The notes under the pieces are model-generated. The model searched no databases. It worked only from the letters and a program-made list of their open reading frames with translations, and was not told the DNA's origin. A stretch of 64,000 nucleotides of DNA from Dyella jiangningensis (GTDB lineage Bacteria; Pseudomonadota; Gammaproteobacteria; Xanthomonadales; Rhodanobacteraceae): NCBI RefSeq assembly GCF_003264855.1, contig NZ_NFZS01000001.1:1860001-1924000 (forward strand), given 5' to 3'. The translations under genes were made by a program, and so were the position numbers. This document shows, piece after piece, positions 1 to 26,127 of the stretch. How positions within the stretch are numbered: the stretch's first letter is position 1; each line of letters opens with the position of its first letter.

Positions 1-473
1 GGCGGATTGAGCACGTCCGGCTTCCACGCCGGATCGCCCGCGTGGCCGAACCAGATCTTGATGTCGTACGGCGTGCGCGCGTTCGCGCGGACATTGGGCA
101 GGCCCAGCAGCAACTGCCAGCGGCCCGGGCGGATGGCGCCGGGCAGGTACGAGGGCGTGGCGTCGGTGGCCGACACCGTGAACAGGCGTTTGGTGCCGCC
201 GCTCCAGCCGCGAAAGCCATCCTGGCCGCGGAAGCCATCGGGACCGAGCAGGCCGAGGTCGATGGTGGTGTGGTCGGTCTTGTTGTCGTAGTCGAACTGC
301 ACGGTGATGCGCGTGGTCCCGGCGGGCACGTCGAAAGGCACCGGGCGATAGGTCTGGTTGTCCTTGCCCGTCACTTCGCCATGCAGGTTGAGGTCGGGTT
401 TGTCCGTGGCATCGGCGTGGGCCAGCGAGGCAGCAGCGAGAGCCAGCAGGAGCAGGGCAAGGTGACGGCGCAT
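1..473 (-). CDS. N-terminal part of a secreted CehA/McbA-like (PHP-type) metallohydrolase, cut by window edge
   Basis: The first 157 codons are in the window; the 3' end lies off the left edge. The protein starts MRRHLALLLLALAAASLAHA, a Sec signal peptide with an AHA cleavage site. Then comes a beta-rich N-terminal module ending in RPGRWQLLLGLPNVRANARTPYD. That module resembles the domain that precedes the PHP phosphoesterase domain in CehA/McbA-family hydrolases, but the catalytic domain itself is outside the window, so the hydrolase call is inference from the N-terminal style. The ATG at 471-473 shares one base with the TGA of the upstream phospholipase gene (TGATG), so translation is coupled. 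It is the third gene of the operon that starts with the TonB-dependent receptor. It could instead be another beta-sandwich secreted protein. Confidence 0.6.
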   Translation of the reverse strand, partial: MRRHLALLLLALAAASLAHADATDKPDLNLHGEVTGKDNQTYRPVPFDVPAGTTRITVQFDYDNKTDHTTIDLGLLGPDGFRGQDGFRGWSGGTKRLFTVSATDATPSYLPGAIRPGRWQLLLGLPNVRANARTPYDIKIWFGHAGDPAWKPDVLNP

Positions 474-1639
474 CAGGGGTGTCCTTGCGGCGAACGGGCT
501 GCCGCTTTGAGGCGTGGCGTGCAGCGTGCCACCGCTGCATCGGGAAGGGTGACGCGATAAGCGCCCAAGCGCGCATCGGGAACCATGTAATCCGTCGATA
601 CGTATTGCGCGCCGCTGGCGAATGCGGCTTCGCGACGGCTCGTGTCATTGCGACGTGCTTCGCGCGTATCGGCGTCGGCGCGCGTGCGTACCATGTAGCC
701 GGCGTCGACGTCGCGACGGATGCGTTCGCCTTCGGCCAGCGGATCGTTGAGCGTCAGGTAGGCCGCCGCGGGCGACTGCTCGTCGGTGTTGACGAAGGCC
801 ACGCGTCCTTCGAGCGAATGCCGGGCGCCGCGATAGGTCGCCACCTTGGCGGCGTCCTCGTCCAGCACGAAGAACACCTTGCCGCGTGCACTCCCCAGCG
901 TCGGCCATTGGCCGGCGAGCACCGCGTCGCGAAGCGTGGACCGCTTGCCCTGCACGTCGTCGGGAACGATGAGTTCGTTCGGCGCGAACACGCTGCGTAT
1001 CTCCGTGTCCATCGCGTCGAACGCCGCCGCGGTGAAGGGCAGGGGATCCACGGCGCCGGGGCCGCCATGTCCATCCTTGGCATTGAGCAGCAACATGATG
1101 GGTACGTGCCGCGGATGGTCCAGCGACCAGCGGCGGATGATCCTCAGGCAGTCGACGAACACCTGGCAGGAGCTGCGGAAATCGATATCCGCCAGATGCA
1201 TCACCTTGAAGCCTGGCTTGCCCATGTCCGCAGCGACCCCGGCTGGCCACGGCGACGTCGCATAGCCCTTGCGCAACGCACCCGGCGGATGCGCGTAGCG
1301 ACCGCCTTGCGGGTCGTAGTAGACATCCAGTTCCAGCGTGCGCGCACCACGATTCAGCTGCACATCGAGCGGCGGGTGCGCGTAGTCGAGGCCTTCGGCA
1401 CCGCGCGGATCGCGGGCATGGTGCGCCGCCCATTCCTCGGGCGGCATCGCCTGCTTGTAGCTGTTGTGCGTGCCGATCGCCTGCAACTGGTTCATGTGCA
1501 GCGTGCGATCGAGCGTGGCGATGTCACATCCCGTCGCGGGACGCTCCAGATCGCACGAGGAGTGCGCGATGGCCAGGGCAGGGCTCAAGACGAGCCCTGC
1601 CACCAGCCACTTCCATCGACATGTCGTTGCGACGGTCAT
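473..1639 (-). CDS. Secreted Ca2+-dependent phosphatidylinositol phospholipase C-like phosphodiesterase
   Basis: A 388-residue protein with an N-terminal hydrophobic export signal (about residues 9-25, ending ALAIAHS). The catalytic histidine motif of PI-PLC-type TIM barrels is visible as QAIGTHNSYK (His58). Acidic residues of a metal site follow in TLELDVYYD (Glu103, Asp105), and a second conserved histidine lies in VMHLADIDF (His148). This matches the Ca2+-dependent PI-PLC1-like family, which cleaves glycerophosphodiester head groups by acid-base catalysis. The natural substrate here is unknown. It would act in the periplasm or outside the cell. The gene starts 3 bp after the TonB-receptor stop codon and its own stop overlaps the next ATG, so all three form one operon. 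The Pho-like array upstream suggests a job in phosphate scavenging (inference). Confidence 0.8.
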   Translation of the reverse strand: MTVATTCRWKWLVAGLVLSPALAIAHSSCDLERPATGCDIATLDRTLHMNQLQAIGTHNSYKQAMPPEEWAAHHARDPRGAEGLDYAHPPLDVQLNRGARTLELDVYYDPQGGRYAHPPGALRKGYATSPWPAGVAADMGKPGFKVMHLADIDFRSSCQVFVDCLRIIRRWSLDHPRHVPIMLLLNAKDGHGGPGAVDPLPFTAAAFDAMDTEIRSVFAPNELIVPDDVQGKRSTLRDAVLAGQWPTLGSARGKVFFVLDEDAAKVATYRGARHSLEGRVAFVNTDEQSPAAAYLTLNDPLAEGERIRRDVDAGYMVRTRADADTREARRNDTSRREAAFASGAQYVSTDYMVPDARLGAYRVTLPDAAVARCTPRLKAAARSPQGHP

Positions 1640-1642
1640 CCG

Positions 1643-4171
1643 TCAGAAACGGTACATGATCGCGAAGCGATACGCGCGGCCGAGGATCGGGCGGGCGATG
1701 AAGGTGTTCGCACCGGCGTCGGCACTCTGCAATTCGCCAGCGCGCGGGTTGCCCTCGGTGAGGCCCAGCGAGTTGGTGAGGTTGTCGCCGTAGAGGTACA
1801 GCGAGCAGTGCTGCGACACGTCGTAGCGCGCGCTGGCGCTCCACACGTCGTACGAGGGCAGGCGTACCGAGTTGGCGGTGTCGACGAAACGCTCGCCTTC
1901 GTATTCGTATGCCACCTGCAGGCGCAGCTTGCCATTCAGCAGGTTCACGCCTGGCACCACGCGGTAGCTCACCTTCGGCACGCGAATCAGCTGGTTGCCC
2001 ACATAATCGCGCAGCACCGGCGCGCCGTTGACGATTTCGGTGTAGCGCAGGCCCTGGTACGTCGGATCCTGGTACGTCGCGGTCAACTGCACGTCGAAGA
2101 ACTGGCTCGGGAACCACGAACCTTCCAGTTCCAGGCCCTTGGTCTTGGTGTCCGCGTAGCCCTGCTGCACCGTGGAGGAGTTGGACGTGGCGTTGAACAC
2201 GTAATTGCTGAAGCCGACGTTGTTGTACTTGGTGTAGAACGCCGTGGCGTACACGTCGAACTGGCGGTCGGTGTATTTGTAGCCGACCTCACCCAGGTCC
2301 ATGGTCTGCGTGATCGGCGTGGCCGTGGGGCTGGTGATGTAAGAGCTCAGGTTCGGCAGGCGGAAGGTCGGCGTCCAGCGGGCGAACACACCCGAGTTCG
2401 GCGAGAACTGCCAGTTCGCGCCCAGCGTCCAGCCCAGCTTGCTGAAGGTGTGGTCGTAAGGCACGAACACGCCGGTGCCGTTGAGGATGTTCGACGTGGC
2501 GAAGGTGCCCTGGTTCACCGTCTGCTTGGTCTCGGTCTGGCCGCGCGTGTTCACCTGTTCCCAGCGCGCACCGCCATCGATGCGCAGGTTGTCCGTCACC
2601 TGCCATTCGTCGGAGAGATAGAACGCATTGGTGGTGGACTTGCCGCCAGCGTGCTCCCACTCGTAGCCATAGCGGTAGATGCCGTTGTCGGTGAGCTTGG
2701 CGATCGGCTGGCCGGCCGCATTCACCGCAACCAGGTCGAGCAGGCGCGCATTGTCCTGTGCGTCCGTCAGCGCCACCGAGGAGTAGCGGCTGAAGTCCTG
2801 GTTGAAATGCGCGTAGTAGTAACCGAACGTCACGTCATGCGTCTGGCCGCCCAGTTCGAACTTGCGCAGGATGCGCGTGTCGTTGTCGAACTCGTTCACC
2901 GGCATCGTCACGCCGCGCAGGCCCGCCTGCACCACCAGCGCGTTGCCGTTCTGGTTGGCGAGGTTGAACACCTGGCTCGGGTTGTCCACGTAGCGCAGCT
3001 GCAGGCCGGCGGTACCTGCCGGCAGATAGCTGTTCACGGCCTTCTGCGCCGTCGCGAGGAAGGCCGTACCGCTGGAAAGCGCATTGGGGAACACGCCGTT
3101 GCGCTGCGTCTGCGTGTTGGAATAGCGGAACGATTCGGCCAGCTTCCAGTCGTCGATCAGGTCATGGTCGAACTTGATGGTGACCTGGTCGCGCTTGACG
3201 TGCGTGCCTTCGGTGTTGTCGAAGTTGTACAGGCTGCCGTCGCCCATCTTCATCTGGATGTGCTCGGTCTCCGGACCGGCCAGCGTGCCGTAGTTGCCAT
3301 CGAAGCCGGGCACGGCGCGGATGTCGCCGTTGGGCAGCGTGCGCATCGGGATGCCCAGATACAGCGCCACCTTGTCGTCCATGTGCTTGTAGTCGACGCT
3401 GAAGCTGCCGTTCTCGAACTGCTTGGCGAGGTTGATGCGGATCTGGCCGCCGTCGTTGGCCGGGAACTTCGGATCGCGGATGCCGTTGTCCTTGCGATAG
3501 AAGCCGCCCATGCCGAGCTTCCAGCCGTCGCCCACCGGCGTGCCGACCCAGAAGTCGCCGCGCTCCATGCCGTAGTCGCCCACGGTGAACTTGAACAGGC
3601 CTTCGGCGGTATCGCCCACCTGGCGCGGAATGAAGTTGATCGCGCCCGCCGGTGCGTTGGAATAGAACACCGACGACGGACCGCCACGCACCACTTCGAT
3701 GCGCTCGATGGTTTCATCGAGGCGGAACGCCTGGTCGGCATTGAGGTAGCCGAGCGCCGGATCATGCTGCACCGGCACGCCGTCTTCGAGCAGGTTCACC
3801 GAACCATAGCCGTCCACCGGGATGCCGCGCGCGCGGATGTTGCCGCTGGCTTCGCCGCCGGAGGCTTCCACCCAGAAGCCCGGCACCGACTTCATCGCCT
3901 CGGTCACCGAGGTCGGGGCCTGCATGCGCAGGCGGTCTTCGTCGATGGTGGTGATGGAATAGCTGGTCTCGGCCTTGGTACGCACGTCGACACCGGAGCG
4001 CGCTGTCACCACGATGCCATCGAGGTTCTTGGCCTTGTCCTTGTCGGCCTGCATCTTCTTGGTGTCGTTGTCGGGCGCGGACGCATCCTGTGCGTGCAGC
4101 GCGATGCTGCACAGGCTGACGGAGGCGAACAGGGCGAGGCGAATGGCGTGGGAGATGGGGCGGCAATGCAC
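1643..4171 (-). CDS. TonB-dependent outer-membrane receptor
   Basis: 842 residues with a GTG start at 4171, preceded by GGAG at 7-nt spacing. There is a signal peptide ending SIALHAQ. The plug domain covers about residues 60-190, with the typical VTEAMKSVPGFWVE and RIEVVRGGPSSVFYSNAPAGAINFI signatures. A long 22-strand barrel region follows and ends in the terminal aromatic FAIMYRF needed for BAM-mediated insertion. The receptor imports a ligand across the outer membrane using TonB energy. The ligand cannot be read from sequence. Its operon partners are a PI-PLC-like diesterase and a CehA/McbA-like protein, and the promoter region carries Pho-box-like repeats, so an organophosphate or phosphodiester product is a reasonable guess rather than a siderophore. 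No FecR/FecI-type signalling domain is seen. Confidence 0.88.
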   Translation of the reverse strand: MHCRPISHAIRLALFASVSLCSIALHAQDASAPDNDTKKMQADKDKAKNLDGIVVTARSGVDVRTKAETSYSITTIDEDRLRMQAPTSVTEAMKSVPGFWVEASGGEASGNIRARGIPVDGYGSVNLLEDGVPVQHDPALGYLNADQAFRLDETIERIEVVRGGPSSVFYSNAPAGAINFIPRQVGDTAEGLFKFTVGDYGMERGDFWVGTPVGDGWKLGMGGFYRKDNGIRDPKFPANDGGQIRINLAKQFENGSFSVDYKHMDDKVALYLGIPMRTLPNGDIRAVPGFDGNYGTLAGPETEHIQMKMGDGSLYNFDNTEGTHVKRDQVTIKFDHDLIDDWKLAESFRYSNTQTQRNGVFPNALSSGTAFLATAQKAVNSYLPAGTAGLQLRYVDNPSQVFNLANQNGNALVVQAGLRGVTMPVNEFDNDTRILRKFELGGQTHDVTFGYYYAHFNQDFSRYSSVALTDAQDNARLLDLVAVNAAGQPIAKLTDNGIYRYGYEWEHAGGKSTTNAFYLSDEWQVTDNLRIDGGARWEQVNTRGQTETKQTVNQGTFATSNILNGTGVFVPYDHTFSKLGWTLGANWQFSPNSGVFARWTPTFRLPNLSSYITSPTATPITQTMDLGEVGYKYTDRQFDVYATAFYTKYNNVGFSNYVFNATSNSSTVQQGYADTKTKGLELEGSWFPSQFFDVQLTATYQDPTYQGLRYTEIVNGAPVLRDYVGNQLIRVPKVSYRVVPGVNLLNGKLRLQVAYEYEGERFVDTANSVRLPSYDVWSASARYDVSQHCSLYLYGDNLTNSLGLTEGNPRAGELQSADAGANTFIARPILGRAYRFAIMYRF

Positions 4172-4304: not shown

Positions 4305-4364
4305 AGACTAGGCATGCCGAGTGACAAGTTCGTGCGAAAAGCGTGACAGTTTCTTGCGAAAACT
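4305..4364 (-). promoter_or_regulatory. Four 11-bp-phased direct repeats resembling a PhoB (Pho) box, with -10 element
   Basis: On the plus strand GTGACAA (4321), GTGCGAA (4332), GTGACAG (4343) and TTGCGAA (4354) begin exactly 11 bp apart. Read on the minus strand, two of them give CTGTCAC and TTGTCAC, close to the PhoB half-site CTGTCAT. The last half-site ends 10 bp before TAGTCT (4305-4310), a plausible -10, which is the geometry of PhoB-activated promoters. It faces the TonB-receptor operon. The rest of the 365-bp gap 4172-4536 holds nothing else I can name. Confidence 0.6.
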
Positions 4365-4536
4365 TTGATATTTGCTACGGAACGGCGACAGGTGTGATGC
4401 GGTTGGCACTGCGGAGCGTAACGGCGCATCGCTGCACGTATACGCGCCGATGCAAATGTCGTGGTTCGATGACTTCATGCACAGGCGTGTCCGTGGTGGT
4501 GCGTGCACGCTGCACGGGTCCACAGGGAGATCGTCC

Positions 4537-5274
4537 ATGCGCGTGCGCACGCTGGGATTCCTGATCATCGCCGGCGTCGCGTCCGCGCCATCAGCCTTCG
4601 CCGGCGAGGCGCCCAAGGCGTTGCGGGAAGAACTGCTGCGCACGACGCAGGCCCTGGTCGACGCACTGCCCACGGGCGACAGGGACGTCTGGGAGAAATC
4701 GCTCACCGACGATGCCGTGATCATCGACGAGTTCGGCCGCATTGCGCACAAGGCCGATACGGTGGCGTCGATCCACGCATTCCCGAAAGGGCTCTCGGGC
4801 AGCATCGAACTGCGCGATCCGCACGTGCAGCAGTACGGCGACACCGCGATCCTTCAGGTGGAGGAATACGAGCGCGAAACAGTGTTCGGCCAGCCGCTGG
4901 TGGTGCGCTATGAGTCCTTGCTCACCTTCGTGAAGCAGTCCGGTGCTTGGAAGCTGGCCGGCTACGAGGACGTCACGCTGCCCACCGAGCCGCCGAAACT
5001 CACGGTAACCGGCCTTACCCTGGGCGATTACCAAGGCAGCTATCGCTATGCGCCCGACCGCATCTGGACGGTCAGCCACGAACAGGGCGAGTTGCACGTG
5101 CTCGCCCGACCAGGCGCAAAGCCGAACCTGCTGCAGCCGATCGGCAAGGACATCTTCATGGGCAGCGATGACGAGCGGAATCTCTTCATCTTCCGCCGTG
5201 GCGCCGACGGCAAGGTCAATGCGCTGATCGAGCGGCGCAAGTTCAACGACCTGCGCCTGGACCGTACGGGCTAG
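4537..5274 (+). CDS. Exported protein with SnoaL/DUF4440-like domain
   Basis: 245 residues from ATG 4537, chosen because AGGGAGA sits at 4523-4529 and because the protein then begins with a good signal peptide (MRVRTLGFLIIAGVASAPSAFA). The mature N-terminal half (about residues 25-150) has the pattern of a cone-shaped NTF2/SnoaL fold: a helix ending WEKSLTDDAVIIDEFGR, then strands through AILQVEEYERE and LLTFVKQSGAWKLAGYEDV. Members of this fold range from isomerases to scaffold proteins, and no catalytic set is clear. The C-terminal half (about 160-245) is a second beta-rich module of unknown family. The gene runs towards the TetR gene, with 4 bp between their stop codons. The function is unknown; location is probably periplasmic. 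Confidence 0.75.
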   Translation: MRVRTLGFLIIAGVASAPSAFAGEAPKALREELLRTTQALVDALPTGDRDVWEKSLTDDAVIIDEFGRIAHKADTVASIHAFPKGLSGSIELRDPHVQQYGDTAILQVEEYERETVFGQPLVVRYESLLTFVKQSGAWKLAGYEDVTLPTEPPKLTVTGLTLGDYQGSYRYAPDRIWTVSHEQGELHVLARPGAKPNLLQPIGKDIFMGSDDERNLFIFRRGADGKVNALIERRKFNDLRLDRTG

Positions 5275-6040: not shown

Positions 6041-7171
6041 GTGACTTTCCGTAGTGATTCCCCGGCCGGCGTCCCGGCCCGATACCGATGGCTGCCGCTC
6101 GCGTTGGCCGTCGCCGCCTTGCTTTCCGCCTGCGGGAAGGGAAAGCCGGAGGCCGAAGCGGCGCGGCCGGTCATCGCCTCGCCGGTACAGCTCGCCGATG
6201 GGCAGACCCAGCAGCCCTATCCGGGCGAAGTGCACGCCCGTTATGAAATGCCGCTGTCGTTCCGCATCGGCGGCCAGCTGGTGGCGCGCCAAGCCCATCT
6301 GGGTGACACGGTGAAGAAAGGGCAGGTGCTGGCGCAGCTGGACGATGCCGACGCAGCCCGCTCCCAGACGTCGGCGGCGGCAGCACTGGAGGCGGCGGAG
6401 CACCGCCTCACCTTTGCGACACAGCTGCGCGACCGCGACGAGGCCCAGGCGAAGCAGAACCTGATCAGTCAGCTGCAGTTGGACCAGACGCACGATGCGT
6501 ACGCCTCGGCGCGGGCGGCGCGTGACCAGGCGAAGCAGCAACTGGCGCTGGCGCAGAACCAGTCGCGCTACACCTCGCTGGTCGCCGACCGCGACGGCAG
6601 CATCACCAGCGAGCAGGCCGACGTGGGGCAGGTGGTGGCGGCGGGCCAACCTGTATTCGGCTTCGCGTGGTCCGGCGATCGCGACGTGTTCCTCGACGTG
6701 CCCGAAGACCGGCTCGCCGGTATCAGCGTGGGACAACCGGCGACGGTGACCCTGCTGGCGCTGCCGGGCAAGGCCTTCGCGGGCCACGTGCGCGATATCG
6801 CGCCGGCAGCCGATCCGCAGTCGCGCACCTATCGCATCAAGCTCGCGATCGACCAGCCTGATGAGCACCTGCGGCTAGGCATGACGGCCCAGGTCAGCCT
6901 TGCGTCGTCGAACACGGCGCACGGCGTGCGTCTCCCGGCCACGGCCTTGTTCCACCAGGGCGAGAAGCCTGCCGTATGGGTGGTGCGTCCGAACGACGGG
7001 ACGCTCGAACTGCGTCCGGTGTCCGTGCTGCGCTACGGCGAGCGCGACGTGCTGGTGGGCGAGGGATTGCACGCGGGCGAGCGCGTAGTGATGCAGGGCG
7101 TGCATACGGTGTCCGCCGGCGAGAAGGTCCAGCCCATCGCTCCGCCGCATCCGGAGGACGCGCCGCTATGA
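6041..7171 (+). CDS. RND efflux periplasmic adaptor lipoprotein (membrane fusion protein)
   Basis: 376 residues from GTG 6041. This start has AGGAG at 6030-6034 with 6-nt spacing, better than the in-frame ATG at 6026, which lacks a Shine-Dalgarno. The signal ends in the lipobox LLSACGKG, so the protein is anchored in the inner membrane by lipid, as AcrA/MexA are. The order is barrel strand, lipoyl half (SFRIGGQLVARQAHLGDTVKKGQVLAQLD), alpha-hairpin (AAALEAAEHRL through QAKQQLALAQNQ), second lipoyl half (ADVGQVVAAGQPVFGF), beta-barrel and membrane-proximal domain. It joins the pump to the outer-membrane factor. It ends in ATGA overlap with the pump gene. Confidence 0.93.
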   Translation: MTFRSDSPAGVPARYRWLPLALAVAALLSACGKGKPEAEAARPVIASPVQLADGQTQQPYPGEVHARYEMPLSFRIGGQLVARQAHLGDTVKKGQVLAQLDDADAARSQTSAAAALEAAEHRLTFATQLRDRDEAQAKQNLISQLQLDQTHDAYASARAARDQAKQQLALAQNQSRYTSLVADRDGSITSEQADVGQVVAAGQPVFGFAWSGDRDVFLDVPEDRLAGISVGQPATVTLLALPGKAFAGHVRDIAPAADPQSRTYRIKLAIDQPDEHLRLGMTAQVSLASSNTAHGVRLPATALFHQGEKPAVWVVRPNDGTLELRPVSVLRYGERDVLVGEGLHAGERVVMQGVHTVSAGEKVQPIAPPHPEDAPL

Positions 7172-10100
7172 ATGGGGAGGGCCACTTCAATCTCTCCGCG
7201 TGGACGCTGCGGCACCAGTCGCTGGTGTTCTTCCTGATGGTGATGGTGACGCTGTTCGGCCTGCTGTCGTACAGCCGTCTGTCCCAATCGGAAGATCCGC
7301 CGTTCACCTTCAAGGTGATGGTGATCCAGACCTTCTGGCCCGGCGCCGACGCCAAACAGGTGCAGGAGCAGGTGACCGACCGCATCTCGCGCAAGCTGCA
7401 GGAAACGCCGTCGATCGACTTCCTGCGCAGCTATTCGCGCCCGGGCGAATCGCTGATCTTCTTCAACATCAAGGATTCCGCTCCTGCGTCCAGCGTGCCC
7501 GACACGTGGTACCAGGTACGCAAGAAGGTGGGCGACATCGCCGTGCAGTTGCCGCAAGGTGTGCAGGGGCCGTTCTTCAACGACGAGTTCGGCGACGTCT
7601 ACACCAACATCTACGCGCTCGAAGGCGACGGCTTCTCGCCGGCGCAGCTGCACGACTACGCCGACCAGCTGCGCGCCGAACTGCTGCGCGTGCCGGGCGT
7701 GGGCAAGGTCGATTTCCTTGGCGACCAGAACCAGCACGTGTATATCGAGGTGACGAACGCGCGGCTGTCCAAACTCGGCATCAGTCCGCAGCAGCTGGCG
7801 CAGGCGATCAACCAGCAGAACGCGGTGGCGGCGGCCGGCGTGCTGACCACGGCGGACGACCGCGTGTACGTCCGGCCCACCGGCCAGTTCGACAACGTCG
7901 ATGCGCTGCGCGACATGCTGCTGCACATCGGCAGCCAGACCTTCCGGCTGGGCGACATCGCCACCATCCACAAGGGTTACGACGATCCACCGAGCCAGCA
8001 GGTGCGCTTCATGGCGCAGCCGGTGCTTGGCATCGGTGTCACCATGCAACCGGGCGGCGACGTGATCCGTCTCGGCAAGGCGCTGGATACGGCCACAGCC
8101 ACGTTGCAGAAGCGCCTGCCGGCCGGCCTGAAGTTGTCCGAAGTCACGAGCATGCCGCATGCGGTATCGCATTCGGTGGACGATTTCCTGGAGTCGGTGG
8201 CCGAAGCGGTGGGCATCGTGCTGCTGGTGAGCCTGCTGAGCCTCGGTTTTCGCACCGGCATGGTGGTGGTGATCTCCATTCCGTTCGTGCTGGCGGCCAC
8301 GGCGTTGGGCATGGAGCTGTTCGGCATCGGCCTGCACAAGGTGTCGCTGGGCACGCTGGTGCTCGCGCTGGGCCTGCTGGTGGACGACGCGATCATTGCG
8401 GTCGAGATGATGTCGGTGAAGCTGGAGCAGGGCTGGACCCGCGTGCGCGCCGCCGCGTTTGCCTATACCAGCACGGCGTTCCCCATGCTTACCGGCACCC
8501 TGGTGACGGTGTCAGGCTTCCTTCCGATCGCACTGGCCAAGTCCGGTACGGGCGAATACACGCGCTCGATCTTCGAAGTGTCCGCCATCGCCTTGCTGGT
8601 GTCGTGGCTGGCGGCGGTGGTCGTGATCCCGTTGCTGGGCTATCACATGCTGCCGGAACACCATCAACGTGCGAAGCCCGGCGAGGAGTGGTGGGCGCGC
8701 TGGCTGCCGCAGCACTGGAACGACACGCGTCGCGCACGCGCCGCGGCGATCGTGCACCACGAAGGCGACATCGAGATCTACGAGACGCCGTTCTACCTGC
8801 GATTCCGCCGATGGCTTGGTTTCTGCCTCAGGAACCGCTTCCTGGTGCTGGGCGCGACGGTGGCGTTGTTCATGGTGGCGTTGGCCGGGTTCGGCCTGGT
8901 GCCGAAGCAGTTCTTCCCCAGCTCGGACCGGCCGGAACTGCTGGTCGACCTGCGGCTGCCCGAGGGCGCCTCGTTCGACGCCACGCTGACCCAGGTGAAG
9001 CGCTTCGAAGCTGCCATCAAGGACCGCAAGGAGATTGCCAACTACGTGAGCTTCGTCGGTTCCGGTGCGCCGCGCTTCTACCTGCCATTGGACCAGCAGC
9101 TCGGGCAGCCGAACTTCGCGCAGTTCGTGATTACCGCCAAGGATGTCGAGCAGCGCGAGCAATTGGCGCGCTATCTCGATGGCATGCTGCCGCGCGACTT
9201 CGCCGCTGTCCGTACGCGCGTGAGCCGGCTGGAGAACGGTCCGCCGGTCGGCTTCCCGGTGCAGTTCCGCGTGCAAGGTGACGACATCGCCACCGTGCGT
9301 CGCATCGCCGACCAGGTGGCCGGCGTGATGCGCGCCGATCCGCAGACACGCAACGTGCAGTTCGACTGGGACGAGCCAGGGGAACGCTCGGTCCGATTCG
9401 AGATCGACCAGCACAAGGCGCGCCAGCTCGGCATCAGCTCGCAGGATGTCGCCGGCTTCCTCGCCATGACCTTGTCGGGCACTACCGTGACGCAGTACCG
9501 CGAGCGGGACAAGCTGATCGCGGTGGACCTGCGTGCGCCAAAGGCGGACCGCGTGCATCCGGACCAGATCGAGCGGCTGGCGATACCCACGCCGAGCGGC
9601 ACGGCGATCCCGCTGTCGCAGTTGGGCCACGTCACGTATGGCCTGGAATATGGCGTGATCTGGGAGCGCGATCGCCAGCCCACCATCAATGTGCAGTCCG
9701 ACATCCGCAGTGGCGCACAGGGCCTGGATGTCACCAACGCCATCGACAGGAAGCTGGGCGACATCCGCAACCAGTTGCCGGTGGGTTATCGCATCGAGGT
9801 CGGTGGTTCGGTCGAGCAGAACCAGAAGGCGCAGGGGTCGATCAATGCGCAGATGCCGCTGATGGCGATCGCCGTGCTCACCCTGCTGATGATCCAGCTG
9901 CAAAGCTTCGGCCGCACCTTCATGGTGGTGCTGACCGCGCCGCTGGGATTGATCGGCGTGATCGGTTCGCTGCTGCTGTTCCATCAGCCATTCGGTTTTG
10001 TGGCGATGCTCGGGACGATCGCGATGCTGGGCATCATCATGCGCAACTCGGTGATCCTGGTGGACCAGATCGAGCAGGACATCCGGGCCGGCCATCCGCG

Positions 10101-10338
10101 CTGGGAGGCGATCATCGGCGCCACCGTGCGGCGCTTCCGCCCGATCACGCTCACCGCCGCCGCGGCCGTGCTGGCGCTGATCCCGCTGTTGCGCAGCAAC
10201 TTCTTCGGGCCGATGGCCACCGCGCTGATGGGCGGCATCACCGGCGCCACGATTCTCACCCTGTTCTATCTGCCGGCGCTGTATGCGGCGTGGTTTCGCG
10301 TACGTGCCGACGAACCCGCGCAGGAGGTCGCGCCATGA
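7168..10338 (+). CDS. RND family multidrug efflux pump, inner-membrane subunit
   Basis: 1056 residues, the normal size for a hydrophobe/amphiphile RND pump. TM1 is near the N-terminus (QSLVFFLMVMVTLFGLLSY). Two large periplasmic loops and twelve TM helices follow in the usual duplicated plan. TM4 carries the proton-relay aspartates in LGLLVDDAIIAVEMM, and the second half has LIGVIGSLLLF and MLGIIMRNSVILVDQIEQD. The pump takes substrates from the periplasm or membrane using proton motive force. It is translationally coupled on both sides (ATGA overlaps at 7168 and 10335). The sequence is nearer the TriC/MuxB-like branch than AcrB in feel, but I cannot confirm that without a tree. Regulation is probably by the divergent TetR protein. 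Confidence 0.94.
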   Translation: MNGEGHFNLSAWTLRHQSLVFFLMVMVTLFGLLSYSRLSQSEDPPFTFKVMVIQTFWPGADAKQVQEQVTDRISRKLQETPSIDFLRSYSRPGESLIFFNIKDSAPASSVPDTWYQVRKKVGDIAVQLPQGVQGPFFNDEFGDVYTNIYALEGDGFSPAQLHDYADQLRAELLRVPGVGKVDFLGDQNQHVYIEVTNARLSKLGISPQQLAQAINQQNAVAAAGVLTTADDRVYVRPTGQFDNVDALRDMLLHIGSQTFRLGDIATIHKGYDDPPSQQVRFMAQPVLGIGVTMQPGGDVIRLGKALDTATATLQKRLPAGLKLSEVTSMPHAVSHSVDDFLESVAEAVGIVLLVSLLSLGFRTGMVVVISIPFVLAATALGMELFGIGLHKVSLGTLVLALGLLVDDAIIAVEMMSVKLEQGWTRVRAAAFAYTSTAFPMLTGTLVTVSGFLPIALAKSGTGEYTRSIFEVSAIALLVSWLAAVVVIPLLGYHMLPEHHQRAKPGEEWWARWLPQHWNDTRRARAAAIVHHEGDIEIYETPFYLRFRRWLGFCLRNRFLVLGATVALFMVALAGFGLVPKQFFPSSDRPELLVDLRLPEGASFDATLTQVKRFEAAIKDRKEIANYVSFVGSGAPRFYLPLDQQLGQPNFAQFVITAKDVEQREQLARYLDGMLPRDFAAVRTRVSRLENGPPVGFPVQFRVQGDDIATVRRIADQVAGVMRADPQTRNVQFDWDEPGERSVRFEIDQHKARQLGISSQDVAGFLAMTLSGTTVTQYRERDKLIAVDLRAPKADRVHPDQIERLAIPTPSGTAIPLSQLGHVTYGLEYGVIWERDRQPTINVQSDIRSGAQGLDVTNAIDRKLGDIRNQLPVGYRIEVGGSVEQNQKAQGSINAQMPLMAIAVLTLLMIQLQSFGRTFMVVLTAPLGLIGVIGSLLLFHQPFGFVAMLGTIAMLGIIMRNSVILVDQIEQDIRAGHPRWEAIIGATVRRFRPITLTAAAAVLALIPLLRSNFFGPMATALMGGITGATILTLFYLPALYAAWFRVRADEPAQEVAP

Positions 10339-18561: not shown

Positions 18562-18599
18562 CGCCAAATTTTTGGCGTTTTCATTTAGACGTCTAAATG
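18562..18599. promoter_or_regulatory. Two adjacent palindromes, operator-like
   Basis: CGCCAAA-TT-TTTGGCG (18562-18577) is followed 4 bp later by the perfect 18-bp palindrome CATTTAGACGTCTAAATG (18582-18599). Their closeness and AT-rich setting suggest protein-binding sites. No adjacent regulator identifies the protein. Confidence 0.4.
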
Positions 18600-19312: not shown

Positions 19313-19483
19313 TCGCGCTCCGGTAGCACCTGCAGTCTTCGAATCTTGCATGGCTTCGTGGCATGCAAGCGGTCTCGGTCGCGCGGAATCCGGCACGACC
19401 GACCGGCGTAACGAGCACATCGAGTAGACGAAGTCACAGGCGCTCGAAGAGCCAGGGCACTCGCCATCAACGAAACCACGCGC

Positions 19484-19588
19484 GTGTGGAGCTTGTTGAA
19501 GCTTCACGCCACGGGCGTGTGCGCGCTGGTGTTTTCGCTTGTGCTCGTGGCCTTCGGCTCCTGCCCCCCACCCAAGGAGATGGTATGA
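19484..19588 (+). CDS. Possible tiny lipoprotein-like peptide, translationally coupled to the adhesin
   Basis: A short frame reads MWSLLKLHATGVCALVFSLV, then LVAFGSCPPPKEMV, and ends in a TGA that overlaps the adhesin ATG (ATGA at 19585-19588). It is a basic start, a hydrophobic stretch and a lipobox-like FGSC, leaving a mature peptide of only eight residues. The start shown is GTG 19484; TTG 19496, preceded by GGAG, gives a 30-residue version with a more typical MKLH start. Its last codons contain the adhesin's own Shine-Dalgarno AAGGAGA. It may be a real small lipoprotein or a leader peptide whose translation controls adhesin synthesis. Confidence 0.35.
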   Translation: MWSLLKLHATGVCALVFSLVLVAFGSCPPPKEMV

Positions 19589-22500
19589 ACAAGATCCATG
19601 GCAAGGTTTGGAGCCACCAGCTGCAACAGCTCGTGGTGGTCTCGGAATTGGCCACGTGTCGTCGTGGCGGCGCGAGCGAAGGCGGCGACGTGCGCCGACG
19701 TTCGTTGGGTCGGCTGAGCGCGGGCATCTTTGCCGCGATGGCGGCGTTTGGATGGATGGGATGGACACCCTCGGCGCACGCGCAGACGGTGGATTGCAGT
19801 CTCAACCCATTCAATGTGTACAGCGGCACCGCCTCCTGCATGGGCTATCAATCCGCGGCCAGCGGCACGGGCGCCACCGCTCTCGGCTCGCTTGCGCACG
19901 CCAATGTGCTTGGCACGCTGGCGGTGGGCTACAACTCGCTCGCGAATGCCCAGAACGGCATTTCGCTGGGATTTCAGGCCTACACCGCGGGCGTCAACTC
20001 GATCTATCTGGGCGCACGAACGGGCCCGACCACCGGTGCGTTGGCGGACAGCACCATTGCACTCGGCACGGATGTCACCGCATCAGGCACGGGCGGCATC
20101 AGCGTGGGTGCGACCTCGAAGGCCCTCGCCGGAAATGCCGTTGCCATCGGCGTGTCCAGCGGTGTCGACGCCAACTCCGGCAATAGCGTGGCGATCGGCC
20201 CCGCGGCCGGCGTGAGCAAGGCCATCAATTCGGTCGCCATCGGTTCGTCCGCCCTCGCGAGCACCGGGCAATCCGTAGCGCTGGGTGCGTTCACCAAGGC
20301 AAGCGGAGAGGGAGCCGCAGCACTCGGTCTGGGCTCGCAAAGCCTAAGCACCCACGCCACCGCCGTTGGCTGGCAGGCGTATGCGACGGGACTCAATGCG
20401 GTGTACCTCGGTGCACGCAGCACCGGCACGGGCGCATCGGCGGAGTCGTCCGTCGCCATCGGCACCGACGTGAACACGGCAGGCGCCTACGCCATCGGCA
20501 TGGGCCTTCAGGCCAGCGCGAGCCAGGCGCAGGCCATCGCCATCGGCTACACGACACACGCTTCAGGGCTTGCGTCCATCGCGATCGGTGGCGACTCCAC
20601 CGCGGGCGCCAATGCCTCGGGCGACAATGCGACATCCATCGGTACCCGCTCCAGCGCCACGGCCGCCAATGCGGCAGCGCTCGGCTACGACGTGCACGCC
20701 ATCGGCAACAACTCCGCAGCCTTCGGCGTCAGTACGAGCGCAAACGGCGCGGGTGCGATAGCGCTGGGCAACGGCTCGGCCGCGTCCGGCACCAATTCGG
20801 TGGTGCTCGGTACCACCACCACGGCCAGCCAGGTCAACGACATCGCCGTAGGCGCGGTGGCCACGGCCTCCGGCGGGGCATCGACCGCCATCGGTGCGCT
20901 GGCCACTGCTTCAGCGGTACAAGCGCTGGCGGTTGGTGACGCGACCAAGGCATCGGGCGTGCGCGCCGCCGCGATTGGCCCGAGTTCGCAAGCGCTGGCC
21001 GCTTCGACGGTGGCCTTGGGCGATACCAACACCGTCGCCGCCGCTGCAGGCGCCGGCTCCATCGCCGGCGGCCACAACTCGCAGGTGCTCGGCGGCCTTG
21101 GCGCCGTTGCGCTCGGCGAAGCACAGACCGCCACCGGCAACGGCGCCGTGGCGATCGGCGACCCCAATACCGCCAACGGCAACGGCGCCGTGGCGATGGG
21201 TTCCAACAACATCGCTGCGGGCGATGCCGCCGGCACCACGGCCGCGGATGGCGCCGTAGCCATCGGTAACAGCAACCAGGCCATCGGCCAGGGTTCGGTG
21301 GCATTGGGCAACACCAGCCAGGCGCTGGCGGCGGGCGCGGTCGCGTTCGGCAACGCGGCTATCGCAAACCACGCCAACGACGTGGCGCTGGGCTCCGGCT
21401 CGACCACGGCCACCGCAGTCGGTACGCCGAACTACACGATCGCCGGCACCACCTATAGCTTCGCCGGCACCACGCCAGCCAGCACGGTCAGCGTGGGCAC
21501 GAGCGGCGCCGAGCGCACCATCACCAACGTGGCGGCGGGACGCATCTCCGGCGGCAGTACCGACGCCATCAACGGCTCGCAGTTGTATGCGACCAATCTT
21601 GCACTGGAATCGCTGAGCAATAGCGTGACGGCCGATGCCACGCATTACTACAGCGTCAACGATGGGGGCACGCAGGGCAGCAACTTCGCCAACAACGGCG
21701 CACTGGGCGTGAACTCGCTCGCCGCGGGCGTCGGCGCATCGACCACGGCCGACGCGACGAATGCGGTGGCGATCGGCTTCTCCTCCGTCGCGCAGGGCGG
21801 CACGGCCGTGTCTATCGGCGGCAGCAACACGGCGTACGGCCCTGGCGTGCTGGCGATGGGCAGCAGCAACTTTGCCGGCAGGAACACGATCAATACCGGC
21901 ACCACCACCGGTGCCGTGGCGCTGGGTTCCGGCAACACGGCGAGTGATGCGGTCATCGTTTCGCGCAACCAGTTGCTTTCCGCCGGCAACGGCGCCGTGT
22001 CGATCGGCCAGGGCAACACCGCCACGGGCACCGGCTCGATCGCGATGGGCTACGGCTCGGCGGCCAAGGTCACCGTTTCCGTTGGCGGAGCCATCAACTG
22101 GGGCACGATCGCGATGGGTTATCAGACGGTCGCCAACAGCGGTTCGGTCGCGCTGGGCAGCGGTGCCAATGCGAACCAGCAGTCCGTCACCATCGGCGTC
22201 AACACCAAGGGCATAGCCGATGTGGTTGCGCTCGGTTCGAACGCACAGGGCAACGTCCAGTCGATTGCGATCGGCAAGGGTGCACAGGCTGATCTGGTGA
22301 CCATCGGCTCGCAAACCACGGCTGCAAGCATCGCGATCGGTGCAGGGGCCAACGTGGCCATGAGTGTCGCAGGCGACATCGGCGGCATGGTGGCGCTGGG
22401 ACAAGGTGCGACCGTGACGCGCAGCTCAGGCATTGCGCTGGGCAGCAGCACCAATGTGTCGGCTGTGCAGGGCCTGGCCGTGGGTTTGCGCGCTACAACC

Positions 22501-25500
22501 TCGGGCACCAACGGCACGGCGGTCGGCGTCGACAGCAAGGCGGCCGGCAGCAATGCCGTCGCCGTCGGCAATGGCGCGCAGGCCAACGGTGCACAGTCGA
22601 TCAGCATCGGCACGGGCAATATCGTGACCGGCGACAACTCGGGTGCGTTCGGTGATCCGAACACTGTCAACGGCACGGGTTCGTATGCCTTCGGCAACAA
22701 CAACACGGTCGGCGCGAACAACGCCTTCGTGCTGGGCAACAACGTCACCATTGCTGCGGGTCTCGACGGTTCGGTGGCGCTGGGCAACAACAGCACGGTG
22801 GCGGCGGCCAACCCGGTGTCGAACATCGTCATCAACGGCACCACCTATAACTTCGCCGGCACCAGTCCGGCCAGCGTGGTGAGCGTGGGTGCGGGCGGTG
22901 CGGAGCGCCAGATCACCAACGTGGCGGCAGGCCAGGTGAGTGGCAGCAGCACCGACGCCATCAACGGCTCGCAGTTGAACGCGACCAACCTTGCGCTGGA
23001 ATCGCTCAGCACCGCCGTCACGGCGGGCGCCACGCATTACTACAGCGTCAACGATGGCGGCACGCAGGGCGGCAATTACGCCAACAACGGCGCGACCGGG
23101 CTGAATGCGTTGGCCGCAGGTGTCGACTCGACCGCTACGGCCGATCGCAGCACGGCGCTGGGCCAGGGCACGGGCGTGTCGGTACTGGGCGGCGTGGCGC
23201 TGGGTGCCGGAGCGGTGTCCGATCGTGCGATCGCGCCGACCTCGGGCTCGATCATCGTCGGCACCAACCTCATTCCGTACAACACCACGGACCGCAACCT
23301 GCTCGGCGCCGTTTCGGTGGGCAACAGTACGGACTTCCGCCAGATCACCAACCTGGCCGATGGTACGCAGGACCAGGATGCGGTGAGCCTGCGCCAGCTG
23401 AAGGGTGCGATGAGCTCGTTCTCGGTCACGCCGATCAAATACTTCCACGCCAATTCAGCCGCTTCGGATTCCGCGGCGATGGGTGCGGAGTCGGTCGCCA
23501 TCGGTCCGCAGACCACGGTGAACGGTGACAACGGCATCGGCATGGGCAACGGCGCCATCGTGCAGCAGACCGCGCCGGGCGGCACGGCGATCGGCCAGAA
23601 CGCGACGGTGAACCTCGCCGACGGCGTGGCACTGGGTACCAATGCGACATCCAACGGCATCCAGGCGATGGCGCTGGGTGCCGGTTCGCAGGCGGCATTT
23701 GCCGGCAGCGTGGCGCTGGGCGCGGGTTCATCCACGGACACGGCGGTGGGTACGGCCACGGGCATCGTCAATGGCCAGACCTACAACTTCGCCGGCACCA
23801 CGCCGGGCTCCACGGTGAGCGTGGGCAGCGTGGGCGCGGAGCGCACCATTACCAATGTCGCCGCCGGACGCATCGACCGGAACAGCACCGACGCGATCAA
23901 CGGCTCGCAGCTGTTCGCCACCAACCAGGCGATCGGTACGGTGGGCACCAGCGTCACCAACCTGGGCAACACGGTGACCAACCTCGGCACGTCCATCGCC
24001 AACAGCTACGGCGGCAGCACCACTTACGATCCGGCGACGGGCACGTTGAGCACCAGCATCAACTATGGCGGCAACACCTACAGCTCGCTGCAGCAGGTCT
24101 TCAACCAGATCGAAACCGGCGGCATCAAGTACTTCCACGCCAACTCCAACCTCGCCGATTCGTTGGCCACCGGCGTGAACAGCGTGGCGGTGGGGCCGGT
24201 GTCCACCGCCGGTGCGGACAACGCGGTATCGATCGGCCATGGCGCCACCGCGAGTACCAACGTGGGCGACGTGGCGCTGGGCGCGGGCAGCGTCACGGGC
24301 GCGGTGGTCCAGACCGGCGGCGGCACCATCGATAGCCACACGTACAGCTACGCCGGCGCCATGCCGACCAGCACGGTAAGCGTGGGTACGGTGGGCAACG
24401 AGCGCACCATCACCAACGTGGCGGCGGGGCAGGTGAACGGCAACAGCACCGACGCGATCAACGGTTCGCAGCTATTCGCCACCAACCAGGCGGTGGAAAA
24501 CCTCAGCAGCACCGTGACCGCGAACGCCATCCACTACTACAGCGTCAACGATGGCGGCACGCAGGGCGGCAACTACGCCAACAACGGCGCCACCGGCGTC
24601 AACGCGCTGGCGGCCGGCGTGGGCTCCAGCGCAACGGCCGACAGCGGTACCGCAGTCGGCCAGAACAGTGGCGTATCGGTGTTGGGAGGCGTGGCGCTGG
24701 GCTCGGGTGCGGTGTCGGATCGCCCCATCGCACCGACGTCCGGTTCAATCCTGGTCGGCACGAACGTGGTGCCGTACAACACGACGGATCGCAACCTGCT
24801 CGGTGCGGTGTCGGTGGGCAATGCCACCGACTTCCGCCAGATCACCAACGTCGCGGACGGTACGCTCGATCAGGACGCGGTGACGCTGCGCCAGCTGAAG
24901 GGCGCGATGAGTTCGTTCTCGGTCACGCCAATCAAGTACTTCCACGCCAACTCCACCGCTTCCGATTCGCTGGCGGCGGGCGCGGAGTCGGTCGCCGTCG
25001 GTCCGCAGACCACGGTGAACGGTGACAACGGCATCGGCATGGGCAATGGCGCGATCGTGCAGCAGACAGCACCGGGCGGTACGGCGATCGGCCAGAACGC
25101 CACGGTGAACCTCGCCGACGGCGTGGCACTGGGTACCAATGCCACATCCAACGGCATCCAGGCGATGGCGCTGGGCGCAGGCACGCAGGCCGCGTTCGCC
25201 GGCAGCGTGGCGCTGGGTGCGGGCTCGGTCACCGATGGGCCCGTCGCCACCACCGGCGTGACGCTCAATGGCACGGCCTATACGTTCGCGGGCACGACGC
25301 CGGGCTCGACGGTGAGCGTGGGCGCGGTGGGGGCGGAGCGAACGCTGACCAATCTCGCGGCCGGTCGCATCAGCAATATCAGCACCGATGCGATCAATGG
25401 CTCGCAGCTGTATGTCACCAACCAGACGCTGGAGCAGCTGTACTCGCAGCTCACCAACCTGTCGCAAACGGTGAACAACCTGCCGAACAACAACGGAGGT

Positions 25501-26127
25501 GGCAACGGTGGCGTCGGCACCACCATCAACACGTACCAGACCAGCGGAGACAACAACAGCTCGGCCTCGGCCTCCGGCAACAACTCGACGGCGGCGGGCG
25601 GCGGTTCGGTGGCTTCGGGCAACAACAGCACGGCCGTGGGTGCGAACTCGAGCGCGACCGGCGACAACAGCGTGGCGATCGGCTCGGGTTCGGTGGCGAC
25701 CAGCGCCAACACGGTGTCGGTCGGTTCGGTCGGTCACGAACGCACCATCACCAATGTGGCCACGGGCGTGAATGCGACGGACGCAGTGAACGTGGGCCAG
25801 CTGAGCGACGCGATCGCCAACGCCAAGGACTGGTCGAAGAACTACACCGACCAGCGTTTTGAATCCGTGGATCGCGACCTCAATCGCATCGGCAATCGCG
25901 CCAACGCGGGTGTCGCATCGGCCATGGCGATGGCGAGCCTGCCGCAGGCCTACCAGCCCAACCAGAGTTCGGCGGGCGTGGCCTTCGGCACGTTCCACGG
26001 CGAGACCAGCATCGCCGTGGGCATGTCGACCGTCACCGAAAGCGGACGCTACATCTTCAAGCTCAACGCCACCACCAATACGCGTGGCGATGCCGGCGCC
26101 GGCGTCGGCGCCGGCATGGTGTGGTGA
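19585..26127 (+). CDS. YadA-type trimeric autotransporter adhesin
   Basis: 2180 residues from ATG 19585, preceded by AAGGAGA (19574-19580). It starts with the extended signal peptide of this family (ESPR: MNKIHGKVWSHQLQQLVVVS) and a late hydrophobic core ending TPSAHA, cleavage about residue 66. The passenger is built of dozens of YadA head repeats (patterns such as SVAIG, AVALG, NATAIG at about 14-16 residue spacing). Neck modules read GAERTITNVAAG then STDAINGSQL and occur several times, and KYFHANS connectors occur three times. The last 90 or so residues form the YadA membrane anchor (AGVASAMAMASLPQ to GAGMVW), which makes one 12-strand barrel per trimer. It is exported by the type Vc route and binds surfaces or host molecules. 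It lies beside a serine recombinase and an AT-rich island. Confidence 0.95.
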   Translation: MNKIHGKVWSHQLQQLVVVSELATCRRGGASEGGDVRRRSLGRLSAGIFAAMAAFGWMGWTPSAHAQTVDCSLNPFNVYSGTASCMGYQSAASGTGATALGSLAHANVLGTLAVGYNSLANAQNGISLGFQAYTAGVNSIYLGARTGPTTGALADSTIALGTDVTASGTGGISVGATSKALAGNAVAIGVSSGVDANSGNSVAIGPAAGVSKAINSVAIGSSALASTGQSVALGAFTKASGEGAAALGLGSQSLSTHATAVGWQAYATGLNAVYLGARSTGTGASAESSVAIGTDVNTAGAYAIGMGLQASASQAQAIAIGYTTHASGLASIAIGGDSTAGANASGDNATSIGTRSSATAANAAALGYDVHAIGNNSAAFGVSTSANGAGAIALGNGSAASGTNSVVLGTTTTASQVNDIAVGAVATASGGASTAIGALATASAVQALAVGDATKASGVRAAAIGPSSQALAASTVALGDTNTVAAAAGAGSIAGGHNSQVLGGLGAVALGEAQTATGNGAVAIGDPNTANGNGAVAMGSNNIAAGDAAGTTAADGAVAIGNSNQAIGQGSVALGNTSQALAAGAVAFGNAAIANHANDVALGSGSTTATAVGTPNYTIAGTTYSFAGTTPASTVSVGTSGAERTITNVAAGRISGGSTDAINGSQLYATNLALESLSNSVTADATHYYSVNDGGTQGSNFANNGALGVNSLAAGVGASTTADATNAVAIGFSSVAQGGTAVSIGGSNTAYGPGVLAMGSSNFAGRNTINTGTTTGAVALGSGNTASDAVIVSRNQLLSAGNGAVSIGQGNTATGTGSIAMGYGSAAKVTVSVGGAINWGTIAMGYQTVANSGSVALGSGANANQQSVTIGVNTKGIADVVALGSNAQGNVQSIAIGKGAQADLVTIGSQTTAASIAIGAGANVAMSVAGDIGGMVALGQGATVTRSSGIALGSSTNVSAVQGLAVGLRATTSGTNGTAVGVDSKAAGSNAVAVGNGAQANGAQSISIGTGNIVTGDNSGAFGDPNTVNGTGSYAFGNNNTVGANNAFVLGNNVTIAAGLDGSVALGNNSTVAAANPVSNIVINGTTYNFAGTSPASVVSVGAGGAERQITNVAAGQVSGSSTDAINGSQLNATNLALESLSTAVTAGATHYYSVNDGGTQGGNYANNGATGLNALAAGVDSTATADRSTALGQGTGVSVLGGVALGAGAVSDRAIAPTSGSIIVGTNLIPYNTTDRNLLGAVSVGNSTDFRQITNLADGTQDQDAVSLRQLKGAMSSFSVTPIKYFHANSAASDSAAMGAESVAIGPQTTVNGDNGIGMGNGAIVQQTAPGGTAIGQNATVNLADGVALGTNATSNGIQAMALGAGSQAAFAGSVALGAGSSTDTAVGTATGIVNGQTYNFAGTTPGSTVSVGSVGAERTITNVAAGRIDRNSTDAINGSQLFATNQAIGTVGTSVTNLGNTVTNLGTSIANSYGGSTTYDPATGTLSTSINYGGNTYSSLQQVFNQIETGGIKYFHANSNLADSLATGVNSVAVGPVSTAGADNAVSIGHGATASTNVGDVALGAGSVTGAVVQTGGGTIDSHTYSYAGAMPTSTVSVGTVGNERTITNVAAGQVNGNSTDAINGSQLFATNQAVENLSSTVTANAIHYYSVNDGGTQGGNYANNGATGVNALAAGVGSSATADSGTAVGQNSGVSVLGGVALGSGAVSDRPIAPTSGSILVGTNVVPYNTTDRNLLGAVSVGNATDFRQITNVADGTLDQDAVTLRQLKGAMSSFSVTPIKYFHANSTASDSLAAGAESVAVGPQTTVNGDNGIGMGNGAIVQQTAPGGTAIGQNATVNLADGVALGTNATSNGIQAMALGAGTQAAFAGSVALGAGSVTDGPVATTGVTLNGTAYTFAGTTPGSTVSVGAVGAERTLTNLAAGRISNISTDAINGSQLYVTNQTLEQLYSQLTNLSQTVNNLPNNNGGGNGGVGTTINTYQTSGDNNSSASASGNNSTAAGGGSVASGNNSTAVGANSSATGDNSVAIGSGSVATSANTVSVGSVGHERTITNVATGVNATDAVNVGQLSDAIANAKDWSKNYTDQRFESVDRDLNRIGNRANAGVASAMAMASLPQAYQPNQSSAGVAFGTFHGETSIAVGMSTVTESGRYIFKLNATTNTRGDAGAGVGAGMVW
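23036..25228 (+). repeat. Two long in-frame direct repeats inside the adhesin gene
   Basis: About 695 bp at 23036-23731 recur at 24533-25228, an offset of 1497 bp (499 codons). The encoded segments, from the YYSVNDGGTQGGNYANNGAT connector through KYFHANS to QAAFAGSVALGAGS, are almost identical. A third, more diverged copy of the connector starts near 21645. Recombination between copies would remove or add 499 residues without a frameshift. Confidence 0.85.

Follow-up and report, generated by a model that had tools for sequence, protein, structure and literature searches.

A probable Pho box before the TonB-dependent receptor operon of Dyella jiangningensis

Four short words set exactly 11 bp apart stand before a TonB-dependent receptor operon of Dyella jiangningensis, and they raise the question of whether the array is a Pho box, the operator of some other regulator, part of a divergent promoter, or a chance repeat. 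The window, that is, the whole stretch of 64,000 nucleotides that was analysed from a host genome of 4.76 Mb, contains the features listed below, in which the bits are scores of the half-site matrix described in a later section.

1..473, minus strand: start of the CehA/McbA-family metallohydrolase gene (profile match to NF038032), with a 1-bp overlap with the stop of the phospholipase gene; the remainder lies beyond the window, at L069:3968-5473
473..1639, minus strand: Ca2+-dependent phosphoinositide phospholipase C (PI-PLC) family protein (domain match to PF16670), starting 3 bp past the stop of the receptor gene
1643..4171, minus strand: TonB-dependent receptor (domain matches to PF00593 and PF07715), the first gene of the operon, with GGAG followed by a GTG start
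4305..4310, minus strand: −10-like hexamer TAGTCT, facing the TonB operon; TANNNT is found here in 18 of the 26 distinct loci, the window included
4311..4320, minus strand: spacer of 10 bp between the last half-site and the −10, the top-scoring gap of 5–15 in the TonB and PF04185 promoters
4321..4327, minus strand: strong half-site TTGTCAC, 9.2 bits by the matrix, closest to the −10
4332..4338, minus strand: weak half-site TTCGCAC, 1.9 bits by the matrix
4343..4349, minus strand: strong half-site CTGTCAC, 8.2 bits by the matrix
4354..4360, minus strand: fourth phased word TTCGCAA, −2.65 bits, not PhoB-like by the matrix
4537..5274, plus strand: divergent gene of a DUF4440 protein, matched only in L001, L002, and L003 (= L019) of the 30 receptor loci

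The array and the operon that it faces

On the minus strand, from 4360 to 4305, the window reads TTCGCAA GAAA CTGTCAC GCTT TTCGCAC GAAC TTGTCAC TCGGCATGCC TAGTCT, with gaps of 4 bp between the four half-sites, and a pitch of exactly 11 bp. The half-site starts given in the preliminary description of this DNA (4321, 4332, 4343, and 4354) are exact, as are the 10 bp that it placed between the array and the −10-like TAGTCT, and both of these elements point toward the leftward operon of the TonB receptor, the PI-PLC, and the CehA-type hydrolase. The same description regarded the four words as a Pho-box-like array, of which the phasing and two strong words stand, whereas, counted from the −10, the second word is weak, the fourth scores below zero, and the period of the repeat is 22 bp, rather than 11 bp.

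The two strong words lie 22 bp apart, with the weak word between them, and the self-match at this offset reaches 18 of 22 bases, which is unique at that offset among 63,957 positions of the window (the next is 16). The self-match at an offset of 11 is unremarkable, with a best value of 14/33, a level reached by 2,338 positions. Six other offsets of the 53 that were tried (8–60) also have at least one place with a match of 18/22, and self-similarity alone is thus weak evidence, because these offsets have places that are as good. This is the point that favors a chance repeat, a reading that is scarcely credible, given the matrix rank and the conservation in relatives that are described below.

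The receptor of the window shares 97% identity, over the best segment, with its counterparts in Dyella sp. EPa41 and D. jiangningensis, Dyella being a member of the Rhodanobacteraceae, and its name matches, which are weak and below the cut-off, hint at siderophores. The PI-PLC gene is the only PF16670 gene in the genome, and its product has two distant solved relatives, named by their depositors as phosphatidylinositol- or phosphoinositol-specific phospholipase C. The metallohydrolase matches NF038032 with 247.8 bits, against a cut-off of 80, and no Pfam match was found for this protein. Taken together, the domain matches of the products (PF16670, NF038032, and those of the TonB receptor) appear to be compatible with phosphorus acquisition. 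Of the 30 receptor loci, 29 carry a CehA-type gene downstream of the receptor, the fetched DNA of the 30th (L036) ending shortly past the PI-PLC gene, and the PI-PLC gene is present in 11 of the 30 (10 of the 26 distinct loci). Given these counts, the core module is formed by the receptor and the CehA-type enzyme, with the PI-PLC being optional.

A half-site matrix from the pstS promoters of the family

A search of 59 genomes of the Rhodanobacteraceae with the PstS of the window's genome was positive in 58 (E <= 1e-60); 30 loci were retrieved. The pstS promoters of 29 of these 30 loci contain one common array, approximately TTGTCAT-N4-CTGAAAC-N4-AACTCAT-N4-TTGCAAC-N10-TGAAAT; a shorter locus of the set, L051, was dropped because its slice missed the promoter. 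The 7-base matrix was derived from the 25 pstS promoters of genera other than that of the window, each contributing its four half-sites (effective number 6.7), and −10 and −35 frequency tables were used in the scoring. The best places of the matrix in the pstS (40.2) and phoB (25.6) promoters of E. coli K-12, and in the held-out pstS promoter of the window's genome (35.9), are all arrays of 11-bp pitch with 10 bp to the −10, and the candidate box of the genome's own phoB gene is weaker (15.1). The words before pstS and phoB in E. coli are taken here to be the PhoB operator, and the layout of these promoters suggests that the pstS words of the Rhodanobacteraceae are PhoB half-sites. The inverted layout of the genome's own pstS promoter (ATATGACA...TGTCATAT) was also considered as a separate type of site, and was rejected, given that other genera keep an 11-bp array beginning at its right half.

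When the positions of the window are ranked by the half-sites without the −10, the window site is first of 127,944 by its nearest three half-sites, eighth of 127,966 by its nearest two, and second of 127,922 by all four. The preliminary description had proposed scoring the region with a PhoB matrix, and, with the PhoB-type matrix of the family and the −10 added (the outer half-sites being counted only if positive), the window site reaches 24.5, the highest score of 925,690 positions, followed by a runner-up of 20.2. These positions cover both strands of the window and of 20 further 20-kb segments of its genome, together 464 kb. Such a rank, obtained with half-sites from the pstS promoters of other genera, also speaks against a chance repeat.

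The exact textbook form of the Pho box, TGTCAY-N5-TGTCAY, was found nowhere in the whole genome, pstS included, and TGTCAY-N16-TGTCAY-N9-12-TAGNCT, a pattern modelled on the window site, matches this site only. The looser pattern TGTCAY-N10-TANNNT has 12 matches in the genome, against five for the reversed pattern, and, among these 12, a further upstream half-site and a phosphorus-related gene are found together at the window site and before the gene of a PF04185 phosphoesterase, where the site is as follows:

L079 / G000:C4:592091-592112: CTGTTAT-N4-CTGTCAC-N10-TATCGT before the PF04185 phosphoesterase gene (216.5 bits); pattern match, with the 11-bp pitch and 10-bp gap of the window site

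Orthologs of this gene are present in 27 of the 59 family genomes, the copy of the window's genome included, and 19 of the 27 promoters score above the 95% point of the shuffles. The strict form is found in 14 of the 27, and in none (0/27) on the reverse strand.

Further places were observed in the course of these searches. At L081 (G000:C7:73332-73353), CTGCCAC-N4-CTGTCAT-N10-TAGCGT lies very near the start of a gene that is multicopper oxidase-like by eye, while L080 has ATGTAAA 22 bp upstream of the match, with no clear gene, and the match at L077 precedes a gene that is histidine phosphatase-like by eye, with no further half-site.

The PhoB model TIGR02154 has 75 matches in the genome, one of which is over the cut-off, and PhoR is encoded beside this PhoB. 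The protein is 60% identical to the PhoB of E. coli, and a single residue differs between the two in the stretch VYVE(E/D)RTVDVHIRRLRK, which is presumed to hold the DNA-reading helix; a PhoB with this helix conserved is, in other words, present in the genome.

The abundance of such regulators, together with the alternating words, which are unlike those of textbook Pho boxes, would fit the control of the operon by another OmpR/PhoB-type response regulator that recognizes 11-bp direct repeats. This is nevertheless very unlikely, given that pstS, the reference Pho gene, and the phosphoesterase gene have similar half-sites with equal spacing, that the pstS-built matrix peaks on the pstS and phoB arrays of E. 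coli, and that the phosphate-type content of the operon disfavors a regulator of this kind. The words do depart from the textbook form, for which the preliminary description had offered the choice between a relaxed site and a different OmpR-type regulator, and the matrix matches at pstS, PF04185, and E. coli weaken the second of these options.

Recurrence of the array before orthologous receptor genes

The receptor loci comprise 10 named loci and 20 from the 59 family genomes (20/59 having the receptor at E <= 1e-100), which gives 30 loci, 26 of them distinct, including the window; the repeat loci L019, L022, L024, and L027 were left out of the pattern counts for distinct loci. It had been suggested that the same array be sought upstream of orthologous operons, and both the array and its spacing from the −10 do recur there. 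The motif N(C/T/G)GT(C/A)A(C/T)-N10-TANNNT precedes the receptor gene in the window and in 17 of the 25 distinct relatives (18/26 loci), and is found in 0/26 on the reverse strand, while GTCAY-N17-GTCAY before the same −10 is found in 14 of the 26, again with 0/26 on the reverse strand; both patterns were composed after the sequences had been seen. The matrix score, which depends less on hindsight, is above the pooled 95% point of the shuffles in 22 of the 30 loci, and in 18 of the 26 distinct ones. This conservation in relatives also stands against a chance repeat.

The two approaches select partly different loci. In L007, L008, L020, and L021, the motif is present and the score is not above the 95% point of the shuffles, while L010 and L028 pass this point at places with no good −10, and are probably chance passes for this reason. 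The strict promoter motif was not found in eight of the 26 distinct loci (L009, L010, L028, and L033–L037), two of which, L036 and L037, nevertheless have CTGACAT-N4-ACGACAT or GCAACAT-N10-TAGATT. A pitch of 11 scores highest of the pitches 8–15, and a gap of 10 highest of the gaps 5–15, both in the 23 receptor promoters used (of 30, with L019, L022, L024, L027, and L033–L035 left out) and in all 27 PF04185 promoters.

The receptors of L033, L034, and L035 have a longer N-terminus, with an STN-like signal-transducing domain by eye, and no strict motif was found within 1500 bp upstream of their genes. These receptors may be under another kind of control.

The individual places of the array are kept to different degrees. 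At the place of 4332..4338, 11 of the 18 loci that have the promoter motif show a word ending in GCRC, and GTCAY is found at the place of 4343..4349 in 14 of the 26 distinct loci, three others (L007, L023, and L025) having it 1 bp farther upstream. The fourth word, TTCGCAA, is found at its place only in the close clade of the window (L001, L002, and L003 = L019). Elsewhere, the fourth place is occupied by TTGAAAT (L029), TTGAAAC (L030 and L031), or GTGACAT (L032), which are PhoB-like by their matrix scores.

The restriction of TTCGCAA and the adjoining block to the clade with the divergent gene is the main support for another reading, in which part of the array serves the DUF4440 gene, with TTGCGAA (plus strand, 4354-4360) or GTGACA (4343-4348) acting as a rightward −35, and the fourth word falling in phase by coincidence. 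The plus-strand pair GTGACA-18-GATATT scores 11.3, in fact, the top value at 4340-4536 of the window, although the corresponding pair is lower in the three close relatives tried (5.9 in L001, 8.1 in L002, and 4.3 in L003), and the four best pairs of the window include none with TTGCGA. The PhoB-like words at the fourth place in L029–L032, and the retention of the other words of the array in relatives in which the divergent gene is not matched, also speak against this reading, which is considered unlikely, and which covers one or two words at most, so that it is compatible with a Pho box. The word TTCGCAA itself may be either a weak half-site or part of a divergent promoter. Neither chance nor a sigma-70 promoter for the divergent gene accounts for the array, and both explanations were rejected.

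Beyond the divergent gene, a TetR-type regulator gene (PF00440; 5279-5890, minus strand) separates the DUF4440 gene from a rightward region that includes an ACR_tran efflux protein (6976-10338).

Proposed mechanism and comparison with known systems

A Pho box, the form of which follows the available parts of PMC3131613, PMC3348028, and PMC4971064, consists of direct repeats of approximately 7 bp that resemble CTGTCAT, set at a pitch of 11 bp, and takes the place of the −35 some 10 bp before the −10. The window array has this pitch, with two strong words, one weak word, and one below zero, and its spacing from the −10 equals that of pstS in both E. coli and the family. Two adjacent near-consensus CTGTCAT repeats, the textbook arrangement, which is not needed in every known box, are not found here, given that 22 bp separate the strong words. 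In E. coli, the pstS box has the words CTGTCAT, CTGTCAT, CTTACAT, and CTGTCAC, followed by N10 and TATTTT, and shares the 11-bp pitch and the 10 bp to the −10 with the window, which differs in that only two of its half-sites, 22 bp apart, are strong, the one separating them being weak and the outermost scoring below zero. The pstS array of the family also has the same pitch and 10-bp gap, and three of its four words likewise depart from CTGTCAT, although the words themselves are different, as is the −10, which is similar to TGAAAT, rather than TAGTCT.

The array is thus very probably a Pho box, and the promoter that it forms would be activated by PhoB, and would drive an operon for phosphate scavenging. 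This reading is based on the sequence, the geometry, the conservation, a layout common to pstS and the PF04185 gene, and the presence of PhoB and PhoR, and the PhoB-type site that had been proposed before the operon is supported by the matrix rank, the recurrence in orthologs, and an operon content that appears to fit phosphate scavenging. The points that count against it are the weak second word, the fourth word below zero, the lack of a textbook repeat in the genome, the weak box of the genome's own phoB, and the eight of 26 loci without the strict motif. Judged by comparison of sequences, the site would be ordinary in kind and well supported.

The binding of PhoB, the induction at low phosphate, and the location and substrate of the enzymes are predictions. 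Under low phosphate, phosphorylated PhoB, encoded elsewhere in the genome, would bind the 11-bp-phased half-sites as tandem dimers, replace the −35 element, and recruit sigma-70 RNA polymerase to TAGTCT, as in E. coli, where, in the available parts of PMC4971064 and PMC3348028, PhoB is described as binding phased words as tandem dimers, and replacing the −35 contact. The leftward operon would then be turned on, providing a receptor and two hydrolases for a source of organic phosphorus. The TonB receptor would take up an organic phosphorus compound, or the products of its breakdown, and the partner enzymes would be a phosphodiesterase of the PI-PLC type and a metallohydrolase of the CehA/McbA type.

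Operons of related content have been described in other bacteria. The PhoB regulon of Caulobacter crescentus includes TonB-dependent receptors, a phospholipase C, and a phosphodiesterase (PMC11208175), and the likeness is one of description, rather than gene by gene, given that the part of PMC11208175 that was available names no operon with the make-up of that of the window. In Flavobacterium johnsoniae, the accessible text of PMC8115612 describes the induction of SusCD-like complexes and TonB-dependent transporters at low phosphate, and, in the PUSI cluster, a raised entry of a Ca2+-dependent PI-PLC, with pf16670 on an adjoining table row; these systems differ in being of the SusCD type, from the Bacteroidetes, and no CehA/McbA gene is mentioned in that text, which lists part of the PUSI cluster. 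In Xanthomonas, the uptake of sugar phosphodiesters by XanT-XanP (PMC12807533, in part) resembles the window operon in that a TonB-dependent transporter is co-transcribed with a phosphodiesterase in one transcript, although XanP is a 2H phosphoesterase, rather than a PI-PLC, and PhoB is absent from the main text of PMC12807533 as available.

A search of the literature, which covered open-licence papers, mostly by their titles and the starts of their abstracts, returned no description of this operon or of a Pho box in the Rhodanobacteraceae, and the term "pho box" does not occur in the accessible portion of PMC2996285. A working PhoB-type matrix is now available for a family for which none was found in this literature, consulted in part. 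The receptor is also pointed to phosphorus scavenging, which means that, besides siderophores, organic phosphorus compounds can be considered in the search for its ligand.

A more tentative proposal, which is possible rather than probable, is that the Pho operator of the family is of a relaxed type, on which PhoB dimers occupy alternating weak and strong half-sites (the strong ones 22 bp apart, and the middle one often ending in GCRC). Such an operator would control a module of the receptor and the CehA-type enzyme, with or without the PI-PLC, by which a specific organic phosphodiester, new as a bacterial source of phosphorus, would be imported and opened.

A separate element was observed upstream of some of the receptor promoters. 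In eight distinct relatives (L004, L005, L007, L020, L021, L023, L025, and L026), the 14-bp palindrome TTTRGACGTCYAAA ends 31–39 bp before the last half-site, while it lies farther upstream in L031, and is absent from the promoters of the window's clade. This palindrome has five sites in the window's genome, against none for the reversed-pattern control, and is found at 18584-18597 of the window, upstream of a long repetitive ORF (19363-26127) that is adhesin-like by eye.
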